From Chloroflexota bacterium (GTDB taxonomy: Bacteria > Chloroflexota > Anaerolineae > Anaerolineales > Villigracilaceae): DNA of 64,000 nucleotides. Under the pieces are notes generated by a model. It saw only the letters and a list, made by a program, of their open reading frames with translations. It made no database searches and was not told the DNA's origin. The stretch spans positions 1 to 64,000 of the forward strand of contig JAIOAU010000005.1 of the NCBI GenBank assembly GCA_019873655.1. Direction: 5' to 3'. This document shows, piece by piece, positions 2,974 to 16,670 of the stretch. A program made the position numbers and the translations under genes. The stretch's first letter is position 1, and every line of letters begins with the position of its first letter.

Positions 2974-4539
2974 TTACAAGGCGATCTTTTCGACCACGTC
3001 GGGGTCGTCCTGATATTTGAGCAAGCGCAGGCCCTCCAGGCGCAGGGCCTCGGGGAAGAGAGCCTGGTAGATGTTGCAGTTCGGCGACTTGACATCGTAG
3101 CGTCCCGTAGCGCGGAAGGTCTCCAGCGGACAGCCGCCGGCGCACCAGTAGCGCCACTGACAGTCGCGGCAGCCCTCCTTTTCCTCCACCGACACATTCT
3201 GGACCCCGAGCCGGTCGGCGCGGACGAGGGCAAGTGGGTCGGCCGCCGAGGCGTCGGTCAGCGGCTGGCGCAGAAGCATCTGACATTTGGCCACCCGTCC
3301 CTGCGGGTCAAAGACGAGATAGTTCTGCCCCACCCCGCAGGTATGGACGTGCGGCAGGGACAGGTTGGCGCGGTCCACGATGCCGCCGAGGAAGGGTCGG
3401 CGCGGCAGGTTTTCTTCGATGACCCTGAACGCGGCCCGCATGCCGGCGATGATTTTCTCCTCGTCCAGGCGCAGGTCGTCATGGGAAGCCGAGAGCGGAT
3501 TCTCGCGGTAGAAGTTCAGGCTGAAAGGCAGGTCGCGCTCCAGAATCCAGGCCATGACTTCGGGGAGTCCCTGCGCCGTCCGCCCGCTGACCGTGACCGA
3601 GATGTTGGGCGTAAGGCCGTTGGCAAGGGCCAGGTCCACGGCTTCGGCCGCATCGGCGAAGGAGCCGCGTCCGCCCGCGTAACGGCGATGGGCGTCGTGG
3701 TATGCGCCGAGTCCATCCAGCGAAATCATCAGGCGCAGGCCGAGCGCGCGCATCGTCTTGGCCATTTGCGGGGTCAGGAGCGTACCGTTGCTGAGGACGA
3801 CGCCTTCCAGGTCGAGACCGTGCCGCTCCGCCAGCGATTGGGCGTACTGGTGCAACTCCACCATGAGCGGGAAGCGCAGGAGCGGTTCGCCGCCCGCGTA
3901 TTTGAACTTCACGTGCTGAAAGCCGTTGGCCAGCGCCGAGCGGAAAGCGGCGTCAACCGCCGCCCGCCCGGTTTCGAGCGACATGTCCTCGCGCTTGTGA
4001 GGCAGGTAGCAGTAGTCGCAGCGCAGGTTGCAGCGGTCGGTGAGGTGGAGCCAGGCCGTCAGGCCGACAGGCTGGACAGCGCGGCAGGTGGCATCGGTGG
4101 AGGCGCAGGCGCAGTCGATATCCGAAACCGTGCAAGCGCAATCGCTCTCGGCTGGCGTCAACAAGCCGAGGTCACTCCAGAGATGGATCAATGCTTCGGC
4201 CTTGTCCGCAAGCAAGGCTGGAGCGCAATCGTCCAGCGGGCGCGGCTCGGCAAAAGCCGCCAGCAAGGACATTTCTTGCCGGTCGAGCACAGCAACCCGG
4301 CCCAACGCGGCGGGACTGACAACCAGAGTTTTATCCGTTGTCAGCGGGTAGGTCAAAAGACCTGGAGCAATTTGCCAGCGAGAGGCGGATAAGCGGCTGG
4401 AGAGCGTCCTTTTTCCTGTGGCTGGAACGCAGGCGCAGTCATCCTCCTGTGTTTCGGTCCGCGAGGCGGCGATGAGCGTCTCTCCTGCACAGGCGCAGTC
4501 ATTACCCCCAACATCAATATTACGATGTTGTGTCAGCAT
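2974..4539 (-). CDS. Radical SAM/SPASM maturase-like protein with repeated DCAC motifs
   Basis: The 521-residue protein has a radical-SAM cluster motif CNLRCDYC (Cys170, 174, 177), the GGEPLLR motif, and a C-terminal SPASM region. SPASM cysteines are in HTCGVGQNYL, VAKCQML, CRDCQWRYWCAGGCPL and SPNCNIY. This layout matches anaerobic sulfatase-maturase and peptide-maturase type enzymes, which use SAM cleavage to modify a peptide or protein. The N-terminal part (about 50-130) resembles the small recognition domain found before the radical-SAM core in peptide maturases. Unusually, DCAC occurs four times, at residues 14-17, 34-37, 133-136 and 142-145, plus a related DCAP at 104. No precursor peptide or sulfatase gene is adjacent. 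The ATG at 4539 was chosen because AAGGGAGA precedes it; the upstream in-frame ATG at 4566 has no SD. The substrate is unknown. Confidence 0.85.
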   Translation of the reverse strand: MLTQHRNIDVGGNDCACAGETLIAASRTETQEDDCACVPATGKRTLSSRLSASRWQIAPGLLTYPLTTDKTLVVSPAALGRVAVLDRQEMSLLAAFAEPRPLDDCAPALLADKAEALIHLWSDLGLLTPAESDCACTVSDIDCACASTDATCRAVQPVGLTAWLHLTDRCNLRCDYCYLPHKREDMSLETGRAAVDAAFRSALANGFQHVKFKYAGGEPLLRFPLMVELHQYAQSLAERHGLDLEGVVLSNGTLLTPQMAKTMRALGLRLMISLDGLGAYHDAHRRYAGGRGSFADAAEAVDLALANGLTPNISVTVSGRTAQGLPEVMAWILERDLPFSLNFYRENPLSASHDDLRLDEEKIIAGMRAAFRVIEENLPRRPFLGGIVDRANLSLPHVHTCGVGQNYLVFDPQGRVAKCQMLLRQPLTDASAADPLALVRADRLGVQNVSVEEKEGCRDCQWRYWCAGGCPLETFRATGRYDVKSPNCNIYQALFPEALRLEGLRLLKYQDDPDVVEKIAL

Positions 4540-4733
4540 ACTTCTCCCTTTCGATAACGAAGCCATTAAATATTATACAACGCCTGTCAAGTGAAAAAGG
4601 GAACGAACGGCAAGATTTGCGCACTCCTTCCACTACTCAAGGCTCACATGACCACCAACCGACGAGCGGATTGACCTGATTGCACAAGCTTCCAGAGAAG
4701 GGAATTGGGGTGCTGGACGGAGAAATAAAACGA

Positions 4734-4780: not shown

Positions 4781-7700
4781 TTACTCAAGCAATAGCGCCC
4801 GCTTGACCAGCATCTGCCGAAGTTGGGAGCGGCCAACTAAATCGTATTTCTCCTCCCATTCTGTAAGGCACTCCGCAAATATCTGTAAATTATGCATTCG
4901 CAGCGTTTTGAGATGGTCGTAAATCTGCTGTCTGGCGATTCGGAAATCGCGGTACTCTGGAGCATAAAAGGCATTGTGTTCCAAGGCTAGGAAATAATAT
5001 TTAGCAAGTTTTTGACAGACGTCTCTTACTATCGCCTCGTTTCTTACCGTTTCCTCGTCATTAGAGGATTTGATGTGTAAACTTATCTTCTCATAATTAT
5101 CACGATAGAAACGATGTCCTTTCAGCATGTACAGTTTTCCCAATTGGGTCGAAAGCAAAGGTTGATATTCATTCCTCCCGTAAATTTCAGGCCTGGATTT
5201 TCCCTCGGGCAATTCATAGGGCTCTAATAACTTTTCAACCTTGTCTTCTGCTTCTTTCCCAATACTCTCACCCATCTCGCCCGCATAGAATCCCAACCAC
5301 GCCAGGTTGACCAGGGCATCCACCTGACGATAATGGATTTGATCCTGTGAAACTAATGAAGCAGCTAAATCAGATGCTTTCTGCAAAGAATCCCGGCTTT
5401 CCTCAATAAGTTTTTGCATCTCATACTGTGAGAGACTCAAATCATGCATTACTTTCACCATATCACGGCGCGCGCACCCCATCTCGATCTGCGCTTCCAC
5501 CTGGCGGCTTTTCTCGCCTATCTCTTCAAAAACAGCTAATGCTTCTTGAGCGTGCTTGAAAGCCTGTTCAATCTGTTTTTCCGCATCGGCACTACCCAAT
5601 GCATTAGCCTGACGGCGGATAGCCTCTGCTAATGCAGTTTTCGCCAAACCGATGCCGCGTTTGGCTTCAAACACTCGAAAGATGGCAAGCGCCTTGGATG
5701 CATAATCAATCGCGTCTTTATAACGTCCCTCATGAGTATTTATCACCGCGAGGGTATTCAGACTATAGGCTACTTGCGTACCAAGCCCCAGTTCACTGCG
5801 TAATTCCAGCGCATTTTCAACCAGCGAATAAGCATCGCTGGATTCTCCTTTCAACATGAGCGCATACCCCAAATCATTGTTGACAGTCGCAATTTCCGCT
5901 TTCAGGTCAATATCTCGCAACCAGACCGACGCTTGCCGATAATCTGCAATAGTAGCCTCAATTCTCTCTTGTACACGATAAGCATACCCGCGAATACGAT
6001 AAGCAAAGGCTGTGAGCATTTTTGCCAGCCAGACACTTATCTCATCGTTGCTCTCTCTAATCGACTCAAGCACTTTCAGTACAGACTCAATTTCCATAGC
6101 AACCGCTTTCGGGTTAATGTAAGCCAGCGCATAAGCCTTCCAGACAGCCAGCATCGCTTTTCTCAGCGGGTCTTGCAGAGCTGCTGGCCAGGCATTCTCA
6201 ATCTTCTGAACCTCCTCCAACACTTTGCTGCTCTCACCCCTGGCCCAAGCCCGTTTGACCGGCGTCAGAAACAGCGACCAGCGCACCAGGTCATCGTCCC
6301 AGCCTGAATCTTTTTTATCTTTGCCTGCGCCCAACTCGCGCGAATAGGCTTTTAACTCCAATTGCAATTGCAGGGCAAATTCCAAATCGCCGTCAATAAC
6401 GGCCTCATGGTCATAACGCACCCAGCGGCGGTAGCCCTTAGGCGGGTCCTCGCGCAGGCGGTAGTAGAGCAAGGCCAAAAGAATTTCAGAACGACGGGCA
6501 AGGAGTTCGCCCAGTTCATCCCAATCAATGTCACGCCCTTCGTTCGTTTGAATCTGCTCGTAAACCTTTCTCAGGTCATGTCGCACATTCTTGAAACGCA
6601 TTTCATAACATTCAATCACTTTCTTATAAATTTCTTTCTTGTCGGGTTCAGCACCGGGAAGAGCAACGCCAAAGGCTGTTGCCCGCAACAAGTCGTATAG
6701 TTCATCATGCAAAAAATAGGTTTTTGTTTTCTGTTCACGGCCTTCGCGATATTTCACAAAAGAAAACTGTTCAATGTCCCTCAGGTAATTTCCTGCCACA
6801 TCCCCAGGCAATCCCAAAATGTTGCACAAAAGGTCAACATTCAAGCCCTTGGCGGTAAGCGCCATGTAACGCAAAACTTCGCCCAAGCGCGGCAGGCTTA
6901 AGAGACGCTCCAAAATTTTCTCTTTGAAGCGCTCCTGCGGCGTTTTTTTGGCTGCAACGCGCGAACTTTCAAATAACGTCTGAAGCAGGCCGCCGCTGGC
7001 AACGTAATCTGCTGTCAGCGCCAGCATAATCGGCCGGCCGCCGCTCAATTCATGCGCCAGTTTGACTTCTTCAGGTGTCAAAGACTCCAGACTTTTTGCG
7101 ACGCGATCAGCTCTGTTGCGGCGCGCCGTGGCCGCTGCGGCCTGGAAGTAGGCTTGCGCTTCCTCCAGCGAAAAAGTATCCAGAGGAACAGGCAACACTT
7201 CAATCGAGGCATCCAAACCTTTCAGCAATGGACGCGCTTCTTCTCGCCCGGCAGCGACAAGAACGATGTTCGGCGTATCCTTCAGTTGACCGGTCAGCCA
7301 GGTCCAGGTCTCGGCGGCTTCCGGCACATCGGGAATGTCCGTCCCATAGGCAAAGCGTTCCAGTGTATCGAGCAGGATAACCACACGCTGCCCTGTATTG
7401 TTCAAAAAGAGTTTCAAGCCAGCCACAAAAGAATCAAGAACCTGTTGTATCTGCGTTTCCACCTGCACCGCCTCGCCGGAGAGGCGAACGTTCCGCAACA
7501 CGCGAGCATGCTTCTCGTACTCGCGGAACGAACTATCCAAGGGTGTCAGGCTTTGATAGACATCCTGCACGAACTCAATCGGCCTGTGCACCCGCAGGTG
7601 ATAGGCATCCACCAAAGGCTCACTTACTTTGACGCCAGGCATGGTCTTGCAACGCGTGATAATCTCTTTCAAGAAGCGCGTCTTGCCAATCCCGCCCGGG

Positions 7701-7831
7701 CCTTCGAGGAAAATGATGCAGGAACGGGGATTGGACGTGTCCTGAATACGCCCAAGGACCTTTTCCAGTTCCTTCTCGCGTCCGACTAGTTCAGGGGTGG
7801 CAAAAGCGCCAGTCAGGGTTTCGGTAATCAT
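4781..7831 (-). CDS. STAND-type ATPase with TPR-like repeats (1016 aa)
   Basis: The N-terminal P-loop domain begins with the typical LVGREKEL motif (residues 15-22). It has Walker A GPGGIGKT (44-51), Walker B VVILLDTLE (150-158), an arginine-containing sensor-like VAAGRE (about 192-197) and LSGGRPIMLAL at the end of the helical lid. A winged-helix-like segment (about 300-370) follows. The C-terminal two thirds is alpha-helical with TPR-like units (for example TQVAYSLNTLAVINTHEGRY and DAIDYASKALAIF). STAND ATPases act as ligand-triggered switches in signalling or defence. The start at 7831 has a GAGGAGG SD and sits 10 bp after the previous ATPase gene, so it is the last gene of a five-gene operon. 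There is no recognisable nuclease, TIR or other killing domain, so any effector activity is unproven. Confidence 0.8.
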   Translation of the reverse strand: MITETLTGAFATPELVGREKELEKVLGRIQDTSNPRSCIIFLEGPGGIGKTRFLKEIITRCKTMPGVKVSEPLVDAYHLRVHRPIEFVQDVYQSLTPLDSSFREYEKHARVLRNVRLSGEAVQVETQIQQVLDSFVAGLKLFLNNTGQRVVILLDTLERFAYGTDIPDVPEAAETWTWLTGQLKDTPNIVLVAAGREEARPLLKGLDASIEVLPVPLDTFSLEEAQAYFQAAAATARRNRADRVAKSLESLTPEEVKLAHELSGGRPIMLALTADYVASGGLLQTLFESSRVAAKKTPQERFKEKILERLLSLPRLGEVLRYMALTAKGLNVDLLCNILGLPGDVAGNYLRDIEQFSFVKYREGREQKTKTYFLHDELYDLLRATAFGVALPGAEPDKKEIYKKVIECYEMRFKNVRHDLRKVYEQIQTNEGRDIDWDELGELLARRSEILLALLYYRLREDPPKGYRRWVRYDHEAVIDGDLEFALQLQLELKAYSRELGAGKDKKDSGWDDDLVRWSLFLTPVKRAWARGESSKVLEEVQKIENAWPAALQDPLRKAMLAVWKAYALAYINPKAVAMEIESVLKVLESIRESNDEISVWLAKMLTAFAYRIRGYAYRVQERIEATIADYRQASVWLRDIDLKAEIATVNNDLGYALMLKGESSDAYSLVENALELRSELGLGTQVAYSLNTLAVINTHEGRYKDAIDYASKALAIFRVFEAKRGIGLAKTALAEAIRRQANALGSADAEKQIEQAFKHAQEALAVFEEIGEKSRQVEAQIEMGCARRDMVKVMHDLSLSQYEMQKLIEESRDSLQKASDLAASLVSQDQIHYRQVDALVNLAWLGFYAGEMGESIGKEAEDKVEKLLEPYELPEGKSRPEIYGRNEYQPLLSTQLGKLYMLKGHRFYRDNYEKISLHIKSSNDEETVRNEAIVRDVCQKLAKYYFLALEHNAFYAPEYRDFRIARQQIYDHLKTLRMHNLQIFAECLTEWEEKYDLVGRSQLRQMLVKRALLLE

Positions 7832-7841
7832 GGCATCCTCC

Positions 7842-9065
7842 TCAAGCAGGTTGAGCGGCGATCCTGGTCTTTTCGCATTCGGCCAATGTCCCAGCCTTCT
7901 CCAGCACTTCTCTATAGGGCATAGCCAGTTCTTCATACTCCTTTCGATACTGGCTATACTTTTCGGCATAGTCAAGGTAAATCTTATAGGCAGCGCAATT
8001 CAAGCGACGCCATAATTCGGGCTGGTGATGTTTGAGGTAGTTTTTCAGTACATTTCTCAGCGAAGCATCCACCCGAAAGCCTCCGCCCTCCCAGCGGAAA
8101 AGGTAGGTCTTGAGCAAATCGTCGCGCACTTCGCGGATGGAATAGGGCGGCATAGGCTGCTTTTTGGCTTCGTAATAGGCTTTGAGCATGATTTCCATTT
8201 CCCCCTCGCGGAATTCGTCCAGCACGCAGAAGGCTTCAAAAGCATCGCGCAGCCGGCGGCGTTCCAGCGAAGGCGGAATGACCTCTAGAAAATACTCGGC
8301 CACCTCGTCTAGGGCGCGGATGGGGTCGTCGGTCTGCTGCATCAGGGCATAGCCCACCAGCGGACTGCCGCCGCTCAATTCGGCCACTTGACGGTTTCCT
8401 CGGGTCAACTGCTCGACGGGGAAATCCTTGAGCGTTTCTTCTTTCATCTCTGTCCGCAGGCCGGGCGAAATCCAGGGATAGGGGCGGCCGCGTCCGGTCA
8501 TGATGAAGAATACATTCGGTAGTTCGGCCAGCGGCGCAAGCATATTTTCTTCAATTAGTTCTAGCAATTCCCAATCGGCCTCAAAAACCGAGTCGAGAAT
8601 CAAAACCAATGTTTGAATGCCGGTAAATTTACTCTCCACGCCGCTTACCAATGCCCGCCGCAACTCAAGCAAGGTCGGGTCGTTAGGATAAGGAATATTC
8701 AACTGCTCACAAACCCACTTCATTAAGCGTTCACAAGTCTTTTCAGATGCTCGTTTCTCAACCTTCTCTGATAGTTTGGCAATTGCCCATTCATTCTTAC
8801 ACAAATCATCCCAATACTCATCTGGCAAGGGAAAGAGTGCAATATACAGAGAAGTTATCGCCGATGAGATTCCGGGCAAGATGGTTCTATGCAAATGAAA
8901 ACACAACCAACTTTTCCCAAACCCACGTTCGCCGCGAAAGAGGATTGCTTTGGGGGGTTTCTCTCTTCCCCCTGACTCAAGATATTGATTGAACTTGCCC
9001 TGTATCAAATCCACTTCGGTGCGATGAATAAAAGCATCTTTAGAATACGGCTGAAGTTTAATCAT
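7842..9065 (-). CDS. P-loop ATPase, second-last gene of the ATPase cassette (407 aa)
   Basis: Walker A GERGFGKS is at residues 45-52 and a Walker B-like strand LVLILD at 153-158, followed by SVFEADW rather than the usual acidic DE pair. LSGGSPLVGYALM (about 240-250) matches the lid motif GGxPL of STAND ATPases. The remaining C-terminal half is helical with an IREVRDDLLKTYLF segment resembling a winged helix. There is no TM segment and no known effector domain. It is 12 bp downstream of the 388-aa ATPase and 10 bp upstream of the 1016-aa ATPase in the same direction. The missing acidic residue after the Walker B Asp may mean weak or regulatory ATP hydrolysis. Specific function not recognised. 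Confidence 0.75.
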   Translation of the reverse strand: MIKLQPYSKDAFIHRTEVDLIQGKFNQYLESGGREKPPKAILFRGERGFGKSWLCFHLHRTILPGISSAITSLYIALFPLPDEYWDDLCKNEWAIAKLSEKVEKRASEKTCERLMKWVCEQLNIPYPNDPTLLELRRALVSGVESKFTGIQTLVLILDSVFEADWELLELIEENMLAPLAELPNVFFIMTGRGRPYPWISPGLRTEMKEETLKDFPVEQLTRGNRQVAELSGGSPLVGYALMQQTDDPIRALDEVAEYFLEVIPPSLERRRLRDAFEAFCVLDEFREGEMEIMLKAYYEAKKQPMPPYSIREVRDDLLKTYLFRWEGGGFRVDASLRNVLKNYLKHHQPELWRRLNCAAYKIYLDYAEKYSQYRKEYEELAMPYREVLEKAGTLAECEKTRIAAQPA

Positions 9066-9077
9066 GATACCCTCCCG

Positions 9078-10244
9078 TTAATCGGGGAAAATGCTTCTCG
9101 TTAGATACTGTTGTTCGGCTTTCTGAATATCTTCTGGTTCAAGATACCCCTCTCTCGCTAAATAACATTGAAGTACAAGATTGGCCAGCATAATGGCCTC
9201 GCGCGGCAACGGACGGGCGCGCTCGGCGATTAGCGTTTCCACATGGCGCAGGGCCGGGCTGCTCAGCGCATCCAGACTGCCAAAACGTCCCTGGCTGGCC
9301 ACATAGACGCGCCGGCGCAGGATTTCAGCCAGTTTGGGGACATCCCATTGAATTTGCGCTCTCAAAGACTGACGATAGAAGTCCCTGGCCTGCGCGGCAA
9401 GATGCACTTCCAAATCGGCGGGCAGGAAGGCTTTCAAAAAAACATTTGCTTTTGCCCAGACCGACGCTTGAGATAAAAGCGGCGCAATTACATCAAACTG
9501 CGCCTGGACATCCCCCGGCGGCAGGTTGCCGCCATCCACGCCATCCAAAAGAAGAAGGGTCGATTCGAACCGCAAATCTTCCCGAATGAAATCCAGCAGC
9601 GCCTCGAACTGCGCCGGACCAGACCAAAGGTCGCCCGCAGCGTCTTCCAGGTCTTGAAGCATGACCTTGCCCAGGCCTGCCGCCGCTTCTGGAGGAGGCG
9701 GGTCAGGCAGGCGATAGGTGCGGTCTAAGTAGTCGGAAAGTTGTCCAACATCGCCGCTTTCAGCCAAAATGCTTAAGATATATTCTAAACTGACGGGGAG
9801 CGCCACACGGAGCAACGATAAGAGATTCAAACGTTTGGGAACGGTAAGCGAGAGATACAAATCAGGCCGATAGGCGCACGCCAGAAGGACATCCGTGGCC
9901 GCGGCAGCGGCAATCGCAGTCTGGTGCGCTTCAAGGGAGGCCAATTCAGATAAATTAGCAAAAAATGGCAAATCATAGGAAATGGGGAACTTACGATATT
10001 TGCTTTCGCTCTTCCAGCAAGCGCGAAGTGTGTAAATGCGCATGGCCGTCTTGCCGCCGCCGGGAGGAGCAAAAAGCGCCGCTGGGGCTGTCTCCCAGGC
10101 GACGCTGAACATGTCATGCCCAATCAAATAACCGGAAATATAGGGGTCGTTGGAGGCTTCCAGCCGCTCAAAGGGATTAAAAGCAAAGCCCAGACTTGAA
10201 AGCCTTACTCCCACCGCGGTTTGTGTTTCCGGGGTCGCAGCCAT
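9078..10244 (-). CDS. P-loop ATPase of the ATPase cassette (388 aa)
   Basis: The N-terminus carries FAFNPFERLEASNDPYISGY, a variant of the NPF...G leader common before STAND-like P-loops. Walker A is APPGGGKT (59-66) and Walker B STLLLLDGVDG (about 228-238). A Pro-rich bend (PDPPPPEAAAG) splits the domain near residue 185. The C-terminal 100 residues are helical (LPREAIMLANLVLQCYLARE). No membrane segment or effector domain was recognised. A 97-bp gap with a direct-repeat operator separates it from the winged-helix ATPase gene upstream, so it may also be expressed from an internal promoter. The start at 10244 follows TAAGGAGATG at about 13 bases. Confidence 0.75.
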   Translation of the reverse strand: MAATPETQTAVGVRLSSLGFAFNPFERLEASNDPYISGYLIGHDMFSVAWETAPAALFAPPGGGKTAMRIYTLRACWKSESKYRKFPISYDLPFFANLSELASLEAHQTAIAAAAATDVLLACAYRPDLYLSLTVPKRLNLLSLLRVALPVSLEYILSILAESGDVGQLSDYLDRTYRLPDPPPPEAAAGLGKVMLQDLEDAAGDLWSGPAQFEALLDFIREDLRFESTLLLLDGVDGGNLPPGDVQAQFDVIAPLLSQASVWAKANVFLKAFLPADLEVHLAAQARDFYRQSLRAQIQWDVPKLAEILRRRVYVASQGRFGSLDALSSPALRHVETLIAERARPLPREAIMLANLVLQCYLAREGYLEPEDIQKAEQQYLTRSIFPD

Positions 10245-10279: not shown

Positions 10280-10345
10280 AATATATCGTTCTTTTTTCAT
10301 TCCCCCCATTTCGCCCCTCTCCCGTGATTCTCACAAAAATCTCAC
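10280..10345 (-). promoter_or_regulatory. Internal operator (direct repeat) and possible -10 upstream of the 388-aa ATPase gene
   Basis: Read on the minus strand, GTGAGAT (10339-10345) is followed by four T and GTGAGAA (10328-10334), giving an 11-bp period. It overlaps the stop codon of the winged-helix ATPase gene. A TATATT box (10280-10285) lies closer to the next gene with no matching -35, as expected if the promoter needed an activator. The same operator occurs at 14034 and 14259. Confidence 0.55.
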
Positions 10346-11724
10346 CACACATTTTCCAGGCGAACGATTCCCTTCCCGCGCTCCGAGACGACATACACTG
10401 GCTGTTTGGGATTAGGCTCCAAAGCCTGGCGCAGGCGCCAGAGAGCCGTATCCATGATGCCTTCCACCGTGTCGGGCAGTTCCCACGCAGAATCCTCCGT
10501 GGAACGCGGTTGATGATCCAGGCCGCGCAGGCCGCGATAGTACAGTTCTTGCTTGTCGCAAGCGCGGTCAGGATGCATATACAGATAGCGCAAAAGATTG
10601 AGCGACGACTCGGACAAACCGCTCACGGGAAAATGCCCCAGAAAAACCTTTTGTAAAGCGGCATCCATACGCAGACGCGGCGGGAAACGGCGCTGGAGGT
10701 CTGCGGTTGCTTCGGGTGTAAGCGGCCCCTGCTCGGTCTGGACGAGGTAAGCATCCACAAAAGGACGCAGAAATTCCAGCCAGCCGCGCGGGGAGGAACC
10801 GCCGTACTTTGCCAGCCAGGTCAGTAAGCCGGCATCTTCCGAAAGTTCTTCGAGACGGAACGAGTCCTTGCCGCAGGCCAGCGCCAACCGCCGCTCACAA
10901 AGATGACGCAAGGCCTCTGCCGGCCAGGTTAACTCGAAAATCTCGAACCGGCGGCGGGTCAAGCCGGTAGCCGCCGAAATCAAACTCTTCATCCGCAGCG
11001 GAGCCATCACCTTGACAGTAAAGCCGGGAACATCGAACACCGCGAGAGAAGAAAACAGGGCTGTCAGCGAGCGGCTCAGCGCAGCGGCTTCGAGCGTGAG
11101 CCAGGCATCCAGGCCATCAATCATCACCCAGAGTCCGCTCAAGCCGGCTGCGTCCAGTGTTCGTACCACTTCGGTCACCTGGCGTGGATAGGGGGCATGA
11201 GGCGGCACCAACATCTTAGGCGTGCGACTCAAAATCTCACCCAGAAGAGCAGCGCCCTCAGCGCTTTCTTCGCTTTCCAGGCGCAGCAAAAACAACTCTT
11301 TATCGGTGCGCAAGTATTGGTGAATCAGCCAGACCATCCCCTCCTGGGCAAAGCGCGCCGCCTGCGTAAACCGTTCCGGCTGCCGAACCAGATGAACAGC
11401 CAGGGACTGCGCCGCCAAGTCCAGGATTTCCTCCACAAACCGTCTGACAAACGCCTCTCCTTCCGCCTCTTCCTGGACCCCAGCCTGCCACTCAACGATG
11501 AGCGGAGCCGCCGTCCCCGGCGTTTCCCGCGCCGCCTCGATGAGCCGCAGACGCAGAGCCGTCTTGCCGCTGCCCTCCTCGCCGAAAACAATGACCGAGC
11601 GCATCCCGCGCATGGCCTCGAATCCCTGCGGCGGGACGAAGACCTGTCCCAGCCAGGCGATCTCATCTTCGGCGCGCAAGGTGTCGAAGAAGGCAAGAGG
11701 AGAGGAGAAAGGGGAAGATGTCAT
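10342..11724 (-). CDS. ATPase with C-terminal OmpR/PhoB-type winged helix (460 aa)
   Basis: Walker A GEEGSGKT is at residues 48-55 and Walker B-like GLWVMIDGLD at 197-206, in a STAND-like domain. The last 90 residues (about 370-460) look like an OmpR/PhoB-type DNA-binding winged helix. The opening helix is SSLNLLRYLYMHPDRACDK, the recognition-helix region is TVEGIMDTALWRLRQALEP, and the wing hairpin is YVVSERGKGIVRL. This suggests an ATP-dependent switch coupled to DNA binding. OmpR-type proteins bind direct repeats spaced about 11 bp, and such repeats occur three times in this island, so this protein is the obvious candidate regulator; that link is inference. The ATG overlaps the stop of the membrane-protein gene by 4 bp (ATGA), implying translational coupling. 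Confidence 0.75.
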   Translation of the reverse strand: MTSSPFSSPLAFFDTLRAEDEIAWLGQVFVPPQGFEAMRGMRSVIVFGEEGSGKTALRLRLIEAARETPGTAAPLIVEWQAGVQEEAEGEAFVRRFVEEILDLAAQSLAVHLVRQPERFTQAARFAQEGMVWLIHQYLRTDKELFLLRLESEESAEGAALLGEILSRTPKMLVPPHAPYPRQVTEVVRTLDAAGLSGLWVMIDGLDAWLTLEAAALSRSLTALFSSLAVFDVPGFTVKVMAPLRMKSLISAATGLTRRRFEIFELTWPAEALRHLCERRLALACGKDSFRLEELSEDAGLLTWLAKYGGSSPRGWLEFLRPFVDAYLVQTEQGPLTPEATADLQRRFPPRLRMDAALQKVFLGHFPVSGLSESSLNLLRYLYMHPDRACDKQELYYRGLRGLDHQPRSTEDSAWELPDTVEGIMDTALWRLRQALEPNPKQPVYVVSERGKGIVRLENVW

Positions 11725-13967
11725 GACTGTTCGATGACTTCAAAATCGTCGGGTTGTAAATATTCCCTGTCGGGGTGATATTGAGCATGATGTGAGAGAA
11801 TCTTCTGACCCAATTCGAGCATACGACCGAGAGAGCCATGGGATTGTTGGACAAGTCTACGGTCGTATTCCAATGGATCTGCAACAAATGGAGGACGCGC
11901 GAACAGAGAGGTAAAGCTATCCCGACTACAAATCTTTTGAACTCTCAGCATCAAAATTTCCAATAAGGCATCGTCGCTCCACCTAACTAACAAATCAGAT
12001 TCTTTGGGAATCTCTTTTGTAACCACTATCTCTTTGACAACGATCTTTTGTCTTAGCAATTCTCTCCGAGAAGCGCTTACGGCTTGTTGCCACTCATCGT
12101 TGAGCATTTTTTCACAAACTAGGATTAAGACGGTATGAGTAAGCCAAGGCGGTCGAATGTTCAACCAATCCAATATCTGCTCACTGTTTGGCAGAATGTC
12201 TTTTCCGTAGGGCAGGCTGAAATTAGCTATTCTTTCAAGCAGGACGTCCCTTTCTTTTGCCCAAACATCATTTTCTTTCCCTGAAGAATCCTTTTCTATC
12301 TGGGTAAAACGTTGTCGCAAACGGCCGTTCAAGGCCTGCACAGACCCGACATGCCAGCCCAAGAACCCTGTCAAGGCATCTCGCTCCGCCGGGCGCAAGT
12401 CCAGAAAGGCTTTGGGATTTATCACAACAAACTCTATCCAAGTCTCGGCTACTCGACGGGAAATCTGCTCTAATACCGAATGAGAAAATTTGTCCGGCTT
12501 TACATTCCAAAAAACAGGGAAAATTCCGTCCCTTGGCATCTTTTGCTGTTCAACGTACTCTTTCCAGAGTGCTTGCATAAAGACTCTTGCATCTTTCTCG
12601 AACACAATGGCACGTGCTGACTCGCGAACAGATTTGAGATATCCCCATTGAGTGGGATTTACCCAACTCTCCTCGACAATTTTTTCTACATGAAACAGAT
12701 CAGAATAAAGAATGTTTGGCTGAACAACATCGGTCTCAAAAAAATGATGAAATGGTTTAACAAAATAATACTCATCCGGTAAAGTCAATCCATACACATC
12801 TTTCATCCAATCTAATTGCGGATACCGAAGAAGACGTTTTCGATGTGAAGATTTCTCAAGAGCCGTTTTTACGCTTCTAATAGTTTCATCGTCAGGTTGT
12901 CGAGGTAACTGCTCCAAAGAATATACTACTAAACCTGCGCTAAGCACGTCAAATTTGTCCCACATGTCTCCAATAGCATCTATTATCATCTTTGCCAACG
13001 TGGTGCCTTTTTGCCCATTCAACCAATCGTGAATTTTCTGCAAAGATGAAGCAAGAGCATTATTTTCTTTGTTATCCAAAACATTAGGGAAATTATCAAA
13101 AAAGGATAAAACCTTATCCAGGGAGGAGAGCAGAGTCCTTGTTTCCCCTCTGTCGCCCATTTCACTTAATTGTTGAACAACCTTCTTGCGAGCCTCGGAC
13201 TGAAATAAGCGTGATGCTAACTTCGCTAGTCTTTCCTTGTTTTCATTGTCCAAGTGTTTCTTCTCGGCATACTCTTTCGCCTCAATACACTGAGAAAGAG
13301 CAAACAGGGGATCACCAACAAAGTCAGAAGATAATCTCGATAAAGTCTCTCGAAAAGTGGTCTCTGCTTTGTCGGCTTCCTTGCCCAAGTATGTTACCAC
13401 CCACCCCGCAATTGCCGAAAGCAAACCCAAGGGGAGGGCAATATTGCGGGCAAAAATGTCCAGGAAAATTCGCCAGCGGACTTGAGCAAGCGACTCGGTG
13501 ACAACCTGCCCTAGCGGAATCGGGTATTCTAAAAAATCAACCAATAACTTTGCATTCAAGAATATTGTATGTTTATCAGCATCTGGCAATGCTTGCACCC
13601 TGGCACGAAAAACAGCGTTTCCTTCCCCCTCCCAGCGAGGAGAAATGGCCTGCCCACTATCGTCATAAAAGCCTAGTCTGTCGTCGGCTTCAAGCAATAG
13701 CACATATTTTGTTGTTTCAGGCGCAGTCACACGAAAAATCATCTCTTGGGCCGGCATATTTGGGGACGGCAAGAAGATTTCTGACGGATACGTCACCGCG
13801 ATTTGAACGCCGCTTACGATTGTACGGTCCGTAACAATGAAACGATTGGATAAATTTGCTTCCCGCCACTGGATGAGCAGCGCCGCGCCAATGAACACTA
13901 ATGTGATCCCCCAAAAGATAAACAGCGTCTTGTATCGCGCCCAAAGTGTACCAAGAGAGCCCGCCAT
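11721..13967 (-). CDS. Two-TM sensor-like membrane protein heading the ATPase cassette (748 aa)
   Basis: Basic residues precede TM1 (about 14-33), followed by an extracytoplasmic domain of about 140 residues (34-175) rich in beta-type segments. TM2 is at about 176-195 and is followed by lysines, and then a cytoplasmic helical region of 550 residues. The topology is N-in/C-in with a single external loop, like receptor or sensor proteins, but no kinase, HAMP or cyclase motif is visible. I do not recognise the family. It is the first gene of a five-gene operon with P-loop ATPases; the next gene starts inside its stop codon. The ATG at 13967 was chosen because AAAGGAG lies 11 bases upstream and a near-consensus promoter stands in front. 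The longer in-frame version would start at TTG without an SD. Confidence 0.75.
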   Translation of the reverse strand: MAGSLGTLWARYKTLFIFWGITLVFIGAALLIQWREANLSNRFIVTDRTIVSGVQIAVTYPSEIFLPSPNMPAQEMIFRVTAPETTKYVLLLEADDRLGFYDDSGQAISPRWEGEGNAVFRARVQALPDADKHTIFLNAKLLVDFLEYPIPLGQVVTESLAQVRWRIFLDIFARNIALPLGLLSAIAGWVVTYLGKEADKAETTFRETLSRLSSDFVGDPLFALSQCIEAKEYAEKKHLDNENKERLAKLASRLFQSEARKKVVQQLSEMGDRGETRTLLSSLDKVLSFFDNFPNVLDNKENNALASSLQKIHDWLNGQKGTTLAKMIIDAIGDMWDKFDVLSAGLVVYSLEQLPRQPDDETIRSVKTALEKSSHRKRLLRYPQLDWMKDVYGLTLPDEYYFVKPFHHFFETDVVQPNILYSDLFHVEKIVEESWVNPTQWGYLKSVRESARAIVFEKDARVFMQALWKEYVEQQKMPRDGIFPVFWNVKPDKFSHSVLEQISRRVAETWIEFVVINPKAFLDLRPAERDALTGFLGWHVGSVQALNGRLRQRFTQIEKDSSGKENDVWAKERDVLLERIANFSLPYGKDILPNSEQILDWLNIRPPWLTHTVLILVCEKMLNDEWQQAVSASRRELLRQKIVVKEIVVTKEIPKESDLLVRWSDDALLEILMLRVQKICSRDSFTSLFARPPFVADPLEYDRRLVQQSHGSLGRMLELGQKILSHHAQYHPDREYLQPDDFEVIEQS

Positions 13968-13995
13968 ATACTTTCTGCTCCTTTGCTCCACGAAC

Positions 13996-14024
13996 AGTAT
14001 AGATATTTTTCGCCCAAAAGTCAA
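13996..14024 (-). promoter_or_regulatory. Near-consensus promoter of the ATPase cassette
   Basis: On the minus strand TTGACT (14019-14024), a 17-bp spacer and TATACT (13996-14001) lie 28 bp upstream of the start codon at 13967. The direct-repeat operator at 14034-14051 begins 9 bp upstream of this -35 box, a position suited to an activator or, by overlap, a repressor. Confidence 0.7.
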
Positions 14025-14033
14025 CTATCAATT

Positions 14034-14051
14034 GTGAGATTTTTGTGAGAT
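14034..14051 (+). promoter_or_regulatory. Direct-repeat operator, copy 1
   Basis: GTGAGAT (14034-14040), four T, GTGAGAT (14045-14051) form a perfect repeat with an 11-bp period, one helical turn. It lies next to the cassette promoter. Its plus-strand orientation points toward the candidate RNA at 14.1-14.2 kb. Confidence 0.6.
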
Positions 14052-14129
14052 TACAGAGGACAATCGTTAGATAAGCGAAATAGCGTTATTGTTGCCCCAT
14101 GCTAGAATACAAGTAACTTATTCGCTGAA

Positions 14130-14240
14130 CAACGGAGGTGCCTATCGAAAAGTCCTAACAAATTTTCCTTTCGATACGAAGCCCACAATTTATTCAACAC
14201 TGGAACCCTGTCAGAAATCTCTGGCAGGGTTTTCTGTTGT
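14130..14240 (+). ncRNA. Candidate structured RNA ending in a terminator
   Basis: No ORF of useful length lies between 14052 and 14405. This stretch can fold into two hairpins. The first pairs TATCGAAAAG (14143-14152) with CTTTCGATA (14168-14176). The second pairs CCCTG-CAG with CTG-CAGGG (14206-14229) and is followed by TTTTCTGTTGTT, a standard rho-independent terminator. A terminator on this strand with no annotated gene before it implies a short transcript. I found no convincing -10/-35 for it and no match to a riboswitch class I know. Confidence 0.4.
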
Positions 14241-14258
14241 TCCTTACTCGACAAAGTC

Positions 14259-14283
14259 GTGAGATTGCTGTGAGATATGAGAT
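14259..14283 (+). promoter_or_regulatory. Direct-repeat operator, copy 2, upstream of the coiled-coil membrane protein gene
   Basis: GTGAGAT (14259-14265), TGCT, GTGAGAT (14270-14276) have the same 11-bp period as the other two copies. A further ATGAGAT follows directly (14277-14283). It reads toward the plus-strand gene at 14406, about 120 bp away. Confidence 0.55.
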
Positions 14284-14405
14284 GGGTGAAAGTGGGAAAG
14301 TCGCAATTTTGCGGTAGGACAGGCATAAGCGCATGAGCGCCCAGAAGTCAGTATCATGGTGACGTAAATTCGGTGTAGTCGTTTGTAAAGAAAGGAGAGA
14401 AGACC

Positions 14406-15029
14406 ATGAACTGGATTTCTGGATTTGCCCTCTTGCTGCTGGTCACCGGCCTCGTTGTTGGTCTGTGCGTTGCAGGCACTGACCTCCTGAACCCCGTCAC
14501 CAGCCAGGCCGAGGCCGAGCGCATCTCCGTCGAAACCCGCCACCTGGATGTGATGAATCAACTCGAAGAGCAACGCGTCGCGGCCAAGACTGAGGCCGAG
14601 ATTGCCCGCATCCGTCATCAGATGGAACTGGAAGAGGCCCGCTATCAGGCCGAACTGGCCCACATCGCCGCTGACCAGGACCACTACGAAAGGATGCTGA
14701 ATATCAAGGCAATGGCGTCTGAGGGTGCTATCGTTGTGGCGCTCATTCTCTGTGGGGCAGGTGGTATCTCGTTGATTATCGTCAGAACAAAGCTTGCTCT
14801 GGCCCGTATTCCGGCCAACTCTGCCGCCCCCTCGCCAGCAGCCACCAAGCAGCCTTCTCGCCAGACCACCCGCCGCCACTCGCCAAATGGTTACGAGCAG
14901 GAGCGCATCAATGCCCGTCAACGTGAGCTCCTCGAACTCGCGATCACCCAGCGGCGTGTCCGCGCCGCCTGCAACGGCAAAAACATGACCCCCGAGGAAT
15001 ACAGAAACCTTCCCCTCGCCGGTGATTGA
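14406..15029 (+). CDS. Small membrane protein with coiled coil (207 aa)
   Basis: An N-terminal hydrophobic segment (about residues 5-24, ISGFALLLLVTGLVVGLCVA) is followed by a charged, Glu/Ala/Arg-rich helix of about 65 residues that looks like a coiled coil. A second TM segment (about 104-124, GAIVVALILCGAGGISLIIV) and a basic, Ser/Pro-rich tail ending in a helical TPEEYRNLPL segment complete it. I do not recognise a family. The start has GAAAGGAGAG eight to fourteen bases upstream. It is divergent from the ATPase cassette and shares its operator type, so it may belong to the same system as a membrane partner; that is inference. Confidence 0.7.
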   Translation: MNWISGFALLLLVTGLVVGLCVAGTDLLNPVTSQAEAERISVETRHLDVMNQLEEQRVAAKTEAEIARIRHQMELEEARYQAELAHIAADQDHYERMLNIKAMASEGAIVVALILCGAGGISLIIVRTKLALARIPANSAAPSPAATKQPSRQTTRRHSPNGYEQERINARQRELLELAITQRRVRAACNGKNMTPEEYRNLPLAGD

Positions 15030-15294: not shown

Positions 15295-16182
15295 CTACCC
15301 CACCACCTCCGGCCTGATCCCCAACTCGTCAATCAGCGCGTTCAACTCCTCGTCCGTCAACCTTCTCCCTTTCCCTGCATACGCCGTCAGCGCGGCTTCC
15401 ATCATGTTGGTGCCGAAGGAGCGGCCGTCGTAGCGCGGGGTGGTGGTGACAATCGTCTGCACGCCGCGCGACTTGAGGAGGGCGATGTTCTCCTCGGTAG
15501 TGGTATTCGTGACCACGGTCTTGCCGCGCAGGTCGAGGGGCAGGTACTTGCGCATGAAGAGAAAGTCGCCCGCCAGCAGGTCGGATTCGGCGAAGTATTT
15601 CTCGTATTTCGGCTCGTGCTCCGCCCCGCCGCTGCCGTAGAAGAGCATGGACATCGGGAAGTAACTGACAATCGGGAAGAGCGCCCGCGCCAGCCGTTTG
15701 TAGGCGCGCAGACCATAGACCGGGATGGGAATGCCCAGGGCAATCATCAGGTCGCCGATGACCAGCCGCTCCGAAACTTCCTCGGCCGCCTGCGCCAGCC
15801 CCATGCGGTCCACCGCCACCGGGACGAAGGCCTGGCGAAAGCGCAATTCGCCCAAGACGGGACGCACGAACTCGAAGACGCGCCGCTCCAGGGTGTGCTT
15901 CAGGCCGCGCCCGTCGCAGAGCGGGGTTTTGGTCACGCCCTCGACCAGTTTGAGGGCGGCGCGCAGGGGATACTCGCGGTCGTCCAGGCGCAGGTACAGG
16001 TCCACGCCGCCGACGCCGAAGGCGTCCACCTTGCCGTCCAGGTCGAGGTACAGGCGGCGGGCTTTTTCCACGTCGCCATCGGTGCCGATGCGCTCGATTT
16101 CGACGGTCTCGCCGCCGAAGCGGACGGTGACTTTTTTGTCGCGTTGGGAACTACCCAAACTGATGCTGACGGCTCGTTTCAT
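15295..16182 (-). CDS. Quinate 5-dehydrogenase-like protein
   Basis: The 295-residue protein starts MKRAVSISLGSSQRDKKV and contains GETVEIERIGTDGDVEKA and FGVGGVDLYLR. Near the C-terminus it has a Rossmann-like strand with KTVVTNTTTEENIALLKSRGV. This pattern matches a family often annotated as quinate 5-dehydrogenase in Firmicutes and Chloroflexota, although biochemical proof for the family is thin. No signal peptide; one hydrophobic stretch (ARALFPIVSYFPMSMLFYG) is probably buried. The ATG at 16182 has a CAGGAGG SD and was chosen over longer in-frame starts that read into the tandem repeats. No quinate or shikimate genes are adjacent. The name should be taken as a family label. Confidence 0.6.
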   Translation of the reverse strand: MKRAVSISLGSSQRDKKVTVRFGGETVEIERIGTDGDVEKARRLYLDLDGKVDAFGVGGVDLYLRLDDREYPLRAALKLVEGVTKTPLCDGRGLKHTLERRVFEFVRPVLGELRFRQAFVPVAVDRMGLAQAAEEVSERLVIGDLMIALGIPIPVYGLRAYKRLARALFPIVSYFPMSMLFYGSGGAEHEPKYEKYFAESDLLAGDFLFMRKYLPLDLRGKTVVTNTTTEENIALLKSRGVQTIVTTTPRYDGRSFGTNMMEAALTAYAGKGRRLTDEELNALIDELGIRPEVVG

Positions 16183-16200
16183 GGGGGCCTCCTGGTTTTT

Positions 16201-16460
16201 AAACACGAAGGACTCAAAGGGAACACGAAGGGCACAAAAGAGGACAAAGTTGGAAACACAAAGGACTCGAAGGGAACGCGAAGGACACAAAAGAGGAAGA
16301 AGTTGGAAACACAAAGGACTCAAAGGGAACACAAAGGGCACAAAAGAGGAAGAAGTTGGAAACACAAAGGACTCGAAGGGAACACAAAGGGCACAAAAGA
16401 GGAAGAAGTTGGAAACACAAAGGACTCGAAGGGAACACAAAGGGCACAAAAGAGAAAAAT
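16201..16460. repeat. Tandem repeat, 53-bp unit, about five copies
   Basis: Units start at 16201, 16254, 16307, 16360 and 16413. Each contains the words AAACACAAAGGACTC, GGGAACACAAAGGGC and ACAAAAGAGGAAGAAGTTGG with a few substitutions. There are no unique spacers, so it is not CRISPR. It begins just upstream of the quinate-dehydrogenase-like start codon. Confidence 0.9.
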
Positions 16461-16469
16461 AACGTTTCG

Positions 16470-16670
16470 TGGACTTTGTGCATCCTTCCTGTCCTTCGTG
16501 TTCTCAACTTCACAAATCTCTTCGCGACCTTTGTGCGCCCTTCCTGTCCTTCGTGTTTTCAACTTCACAAATCTCTTCGTGACCTGTGTGTGTCCTTCCT
16601 GTCCTTCGTGTTCCCAACTTCACAAATCTCTTCGTGACCTTTGTGTGCACTTCCTGTCCTTTGTGTTTTC
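16470..16670. repeat. Opposed tandem repeat, 55-bp unit, nearly four copies
   Basis: The anchor CACAAATCTCTTCG recurs at 16511, 16566 and 16621. The unit also contains CCTTCCTGTCCTTCGTGTT. Its words are the complement style of the neighbouring 53-bp array, so the two arrays face each other. The array ends on the stop codon of the MBL hydrolase gene (16669-16671). Confidence 0.85.

Follow-up and report, generated by a model that had tools for sequence, protein, structure and literature searches.

Candidate 11-bp direct-repeat operators and their likely winged-helix ATPase regulator in a Chloroflexota gene cassette

Three direct repeats with an 11-bp period (sites A, B and C) lie in an island formed by a multi-ATPase gene cassette in a 64,000-nt window of Chloroflexota DNA (positions 1-64,000 of contig JAIOAU010000005.1, assembly GCA_019873655.1, from a Chloroflexota bacterium of the Villigracilaceae; coordinates below are those of the window). 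Judged by sequence comparison, these repeats are genuine switch sites that recur at cassette promoters across the phylum. They probably act as operators of a self-contained regulon run by ATP4, an ATPase encoded in the cassette, which would activate the promoters at A, at B in the forward direction (B-forward) and at C. The analysis computed the sites and their conservation, the locking of the -10 elements to the repeat phase, the absence of -35 elements and the winged-helix assignment of ATP4. An uncharacterised Chloroflexi multi-ATPase cassette would thereby gain a likely regulator, together with a code for its operators and a geometry for its promoters. The sites and the genes next to them are as follows.

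10302..10345 (-): operator A array, units GTGAGAT / GTGAGAA / GGGAGAG / GAAATGG, 11-bp period
14034..14077 (+): operator B array, units GTGAGAT / GTGAGAT / GAGGACA / TTAGATA, directed away from MEM5
14259..14275 (+): operator C, upstream of DIV6 (14406-15029), with weaker units after it
10342..11724 (-): ATP4, AAA+-type P-loop ATPase with a C-terminal OmpR/PhoB-type winged helix (residues ~348-460)
11721..13967 (-): MEM5, membrane protein, co-transcribed with ATP4; orthologues in relatives' cassettes
9078..10244 (-): ATP3, ATPase downstream of operator A
14406..15029 (+): DIV6, conserved membrane / coiled-coil protein, divergent, with operator C in front

Operator repeats and their conservation

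Exact matches to GTGAGATNNNNGTGAGA were found at 10345-10329 (-, site A), 14034-14050 (+, site B) and 14259-14275 (+, site C). An earlier sequence-only reading had described a 7-bp word repeated three times with an exact 11-bp period; its positions and period stand, but the second unit of site A reads GTGAGAA, and only B and C repeat all seven bases exactly. The placement it gave was also borne out, with A before ATP3, B beside the cassette promoter that serves MEM5-ATP4 and C before the divergent membrane gene. Unit 1 of operator A overlaps the ATP4 stop codon, and the array is upstream of ATP3. Genome-wide copy numbers were obtained by pattern searches, and a position weight matrix (PWM) was applied to the loci of relatives. 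In the 3.04-Mb genome, GTGAGAT-N4-GTGAGA (at most one mismatch) occurred three times, all inside the island, and the reversed control pattern gave 0 matches in the same search; the many random copies that the earlier reading had named as a counter-argument were not found. The looser pattern GTGAG-N6-GTGAG matched A, B, C and one unrelated place.

Chance is excluded mainly by the comparison among relatives. ATP4 homologues were detected in 18 of 152 family genomes, in 38 of 396 class genomes and in two genomes outside the class, and the gap between ATP4 and ATP3 ranged from ~40 to 400 bp. An exact 5-mer was repeated at lag 11 in 27 of 37 such gaps; at every other lag between 6 and 39 such a repeat was seen in 0-7 loci, except at the harmonic lag 22 (13 loci), and shuffled gaps gave a mean of 3.1 and a maximum of 9 loci at lag 11 (300 trials). 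When loci were tested one by one, a GTGAGA-like pair at the 11-bp period was significant (p<0.05 each) in 29 of 36 gaps. The gap consensus was GTGAGa-N5-GTGAGA-N5-GnGAG, with unit 1 often overlapping the ATP4 stop. Both cassettes from outside the class, which were left out of motif building, also carried the motif between ATP4 and ATP3, and no site followed ATP4 in the two loci where ATP3 is not behind it (L120 and L124).

The PWM built from A sites found B-type sites upstream of MEM5 (e.g. L030-L033, L100 and L114) and C-type sites before DIV6, indicating that multiple operators per island are the rule in nearer relatives. The C-type site followed DIV6 to the far end of the cassette in L034, L037, L097, L098 and L107. 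Among the 152 family genomes the exact motif had 12 matches, nine in island copies and three within unrelated coding sequence; four family matches had no adjacent ATP4, namely these three and one in L042, a truncated contig that carries DIV6 with a B site and a C-like one and counts among the nine island copies. In relatives, operator-like sites were also present in front of NYN-domain genes (L113:1214 (-) and L108:8446 (-)) and a radical SAM gene (L114:2782 (-)), which suggests a wider regulon, and the motif is specific enough for finding more of its members.

Promoter geometry of the arrays

As the predicted -10 element of each site, the hexamer most like TATAAT was taken at a distance of 36-110 bp from the start of the operator. 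The promoter elements in the window are listed below.

10280..10285 (-): predicted -10 TATATT, 60 bp from the operator A start; no -35 above chance
14103..14108 (+): predicted -10 TAGAAT, 69 bp from the operator B start, for a short transcript
14352..14357 (+): predicted -10 TATCAT, 93 bp from the operator C start; weak
13996..14024 (-): MEM5-ATP4 promoter TTGACT-N17-TATACT, near-consensus, 9 bp from operator B

Across loci the best -10 positions clustered at ~59, 70, 81 and 92 bp from the operator start, mostly at 58-60 bp for A, 69-71 bp for B and 81 or 92-93 bp for C. Their phase at period 11 gave R=0.79 (46 sites, near-duplicates removed), a value reached by 0 of 1000 shuffles (maximum 0.42). 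The second-best hexamers gave a phase R of 0.19, evidence against an artefact of base composition. In the two loci from outside the class, TATGCT and TATGAT stood at +81, as read by eye. Unit scores at lattice offsets exceeded off-lattice values as far as the -35 position, and the weak units extended further where the -10 lies further away.

No -35 element above chance was seen at the A, B-forward and C promoters (mean 2.25-2.57 of 6 matches; shuffled ~2.4-2.5). The MEM5 promoters had TTGACT or TTGACC plus TATACT with a spacer of 16-17 bp and -35 matches of 5/6, and in six loci the MEM5-ATP4 -10 sat 32-33 bp from the reversed operator B. Given the missing -35 and the near-consensus MEM5-ATP4 promoter, the array, with two strong distal units followed by weak units reaching the -35 position, looks like an activator platform. 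The simplest reading is that MEM5-ATP4 would be a constitutive sensor-regulator and A, B-forward and C activator-dependent outputs. The additional weak units, the -10 elements in phase with the arrays and the implied activation of A, B-forward and C are points beyond the sequence-only reading.

This arrangement resembles known direct-repeat activation. The pho boxes of E. coli (CTGTCAT-N4) and Streptomyces (GTTCACC-N4) consist of direct repeats of 7+4 bp, some units forming the core and others being weaker, and PhoB/PhoP recruit RNA polymerase there by contacting the sigma subunit (PMC4415409, PMC7866108). The Chloroflexota arrays share with them the 11-bp units (7 conserved + 4 variable), the mixture of strong and weaker units and the winged-helix family, but differ in the repeat word and in having the strong units furthest from the promoter, with the weaker ones (4-6 units in total) bridging to the -35 position. 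The repeats bound by SARP activators are spaced by 11 bp and in phase with the -10, the 3' repeat being 8 bp away from it, and the activators replace the -35 in function (PMC10936776); the repeats described here are likewise in phase with the -10, with the -35 at random level, whereas ~15 bp separate the end of the nearest lattice unit from the -10. The system would thus work like pho-box/SARP direct-repeat activation, differing in protein architecture and array layout. The -10, being locked to the lattice at several whole-turn distances, provides a natural series for studying how OmpR-type arrays reach RNA polymerase, a series also suited to asking whether an AAA+ ATPase can gate polymerase recruitment.

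ATP4 as the proposed binder and competing explanations

ATP4 is likely the protein that binds A, B and C, since it ends in a winged helix of the OmpR/PhoB type. The C-terminal winged helix had already been proposed from the sequence and was recovered here by profile and by predicted fold. The ATP4-family profile matched solved response-regulator DNA-binding domains (best E 1.3e-7; PhoB ~1e-4), and the single ATP4 protein scored below the Pfam Trans_reg_C cutoff (22.4 vs 26.2 bits). A structure predicted from 12 ATP4 sequences (predicted local distance difference test score, pLDDT, 84) combined a P-loop core with a C-terminal domain of PhoB topology, with an N-terminal beta sheet, three helices and a C-terminal hairpin. 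Template modelling (TM) scores of this C-terminus against VicR, PhoB and RstA were 0.69-0.77 (target-normalised), the highest with VicR (0.77) and 0.71 with PhoB bound to the pho box. Solved folds matched by the core were TnsC, ORC/Cdc6 and BrxC. Pfam matches of ATP4 were AAA_16/AAA_22-like; neither a receiver domain nor a BTA domain was matched, and a family scan of the six cassette proteins detected no second DNA-binding domain. Thus, unlike PhoB, ATP4 has no receiver and carries its winged helix C-terminally on an AAA+-type ATPase. Like AfsR (SARP-NOD-TPR), it links an OmpR-type DNA-binding domain to an NTPase, but the winged helix of AfsR is N-terminal and comes with BTA, whereas ATP4 has it at the C-terminus, gave no BTA match and is accompanied by a TPR on a separate protein. 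No described system of this make-up was found among the open-access papers searched, which is not proof of absence.

The conserved 11-bp direct-repeat targets co-occur with the ATP4 gene across loci. D425, R430 and R432 of the recognition helix were kept in nearly all loci; three loci with operators varying at position 3 (GTCAG / GTTAG / GTAAG) shared a D-to-N change in this helix, and L120, which lacks ATP3 and the operator, carried R430G. This covariation, although of few independent events, is consistent with ATP4 as the binder. The earlier proposal that ATP4 binds the sites and controls its own island is therefore supported by sequence and predicted structure.

Binding, oligomerisation and activation by ATP4, and an ATP switch, we infer as follows. 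ATP4 and MEM5 would be made together from the near-consensus promoter, the membrane partner and the ATP state being obvious candidates for the switch-on signal. The winged helices would occupy the 11-bp units head-to-tail, nucleating on the strong distal GTGAGA pair and spreading over the weaker units, until the last protomer at the -35 position recruits RNA polymerase to a -10-only promoter. The outputs would be ATP3-ATP2-TPR_STAND from A, a short RNA from B-forward and DIV6 from C. A bolder proposal, offered tentatively and one that may well fail, is that the TnsC/ORC/BrxC-like AAA+ ATPase polymerises under ATP or membrane control along the 11-bp lattice, from the distal pair to -10-only promoters at ~59, 70, 81 and 92 bp, with the number of units setting strength or threshold; it would switch on a radical-SAM peptide response (in relatives also an NYN-domain response) and an antisense RNA tuning the radical-SAM message.

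Several points weigh against the proposed ATP4 regulon. Seven of the 36 gaps (L102-L104, L116, L117, L121 and L125) had no individually significant pair, most of them holding diverged units such as GTCAG/GTTAG. The loci are related and their counts are not independent events, nor are the A-site scores of a PWM trained on A sites. The predicted -10 elements are consensus matches, that of site C is weak in this genome, and the control hexamer TAATAT, near the -10 consensus, gave R=0.54. The D-to-N covariation is possibly one evolutionary event.

That 11-bp direct repeats are the usual target of OmpR-family regulators (PMC4415409) would also fit binding by a chromosomal response regulator of this family, the cassette being a client of a host regulon. 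This is unlikely, since the motif is essentially missing elsewhere in the genome and accompanies a sporadic cassette (18/152 family genomes) across families and beyond the class, and since the cassette has a PhoB-like domain of its own. Binding by ATP4 might alternatively repress, the operators being autorepression sites: OmpR-family proteins are capable of both modes, and site B is directly upstream of the strong MEM5-ATP4 promoter. The arrays, however, leave the -10 and the start uncovered, and the A, B-forward and C promoters, without a -35 and in helical phase with the array, bear an activation signature; general repression is accordingly quite improbable, while repression of the MEM5 promoter alone is possible. 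Very little speaks for the repeats as iterons or transposon ends served by ATP4 as an ORC/TnsC-like replication or transposition ATPase. Tandem repeats with a winged-helix ATPase are reminiscent of origins, and the core fold search does rank TnsC, ORC/Cdc6 and BrxC, but the sites belong to three different promoters, are in register with the -10 elements there and track DIV6 when it is relocated, and scanning the six cassette proteins for known families gave no transposase or replication initiator.

Candidate short transcript and other cassette genes

The forward promoter at B and the region behind it define a further candidate feature.

14115..14240 (+): candidate short non-coding transcript, Shine-Dalgarno (SD)-like GGAG + YTATCGAA module followed by an intrinsic terminator

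The B-C unit had a predicted -10, at least one GGAG...YTATCGAA module and a strong terminator that differed in sequence between species. Folding of the window version of the transcript beat all 200 shuffles (z -5.1). A segment of it, UCCUUUCGAUACGAAGCC, was complementary to the radical SAM gene leader across the ribosome-binding site; the duplex energy was -42.3 in the window (minimum of 200 shuffles -38.2) and -62.7 in L030 (minimum -44.1), and none of the other cassette genes tested gave a duplex energy beyond shuffles. Antisense pairing with the radical SAM leader is thus a candidate, two related genomes being too few to establish it. With curated thresholds, Rfam matched no known RNA anywhere in the window; at relaxed thresholds only snoRNA matches appeared at 14000-14420, and these were judged to be chance. 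One or more copies of the GGAG...YTATCGAA module were present between site B and DIV6 or beyond in L030-L033, L100 and L102, with AUC (or AUA/AUU) at start-codon spacing and no AUG seen. A tiny peptide from the B-C transcript (SD + AUC-GAA-stop) was considered and set aside, as no start codon was conserved.

The remaining cassette genes of the window are these.

7842..9065 (-): ATP2, AAA-type ATPase
4781..7828 (-): TPR_STAND, AAA_16 + TPR protein
2974..4566 (-): radical SAM/SPASM peptide maturase, PapB-like (below cutoff), with DCAC repeats

The order MEM5-ATP4-[site A]-ATP3-ATP2-TPR_STAND, usually followed by the radical-SAM gene, was kept in most loci whose sequence was long enough to show it, both within Anaerolineae and in the two cassettes from outside the class, and radical SAM homologues adjoined TPR_STAND in most cassette loci. 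ATP3 and ATP4 matched the DS41_1 anti-phage / Sll1717 ATPase models of NCBIfam (E 4e-20 to 4e-10). The curated DS41_1 cutoff of 370 was missed by both (ATP3 72.1 bits, ATP4 57.3 bits), and with scores so far under the cutoffs (72 vs 370; 49 vs 75) they are distant relatives only of Sll1717 and DS41_1. PADLOC assigned no defence family to ATP2, ATP3, ATP4, MEM5 or DIV6. Together with the other outputs, these distant matches make a role in stress or conflict response plausible.

Variation within the cassette was seen in L102, L103 and L116, which had an extra ATP2-like gene between MEM5 and ATP4; L102 also had a second TPR_STAND there. The radical SAM protein (2974-4566, -) contained several N-terminal DCAC motifs, possibly a fused or embedded substrate. 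At ~15295-16640 of the window, repetitive sequence gave long overlapping open reading frames with repeated peptide words on both strands, which are probably spurious.

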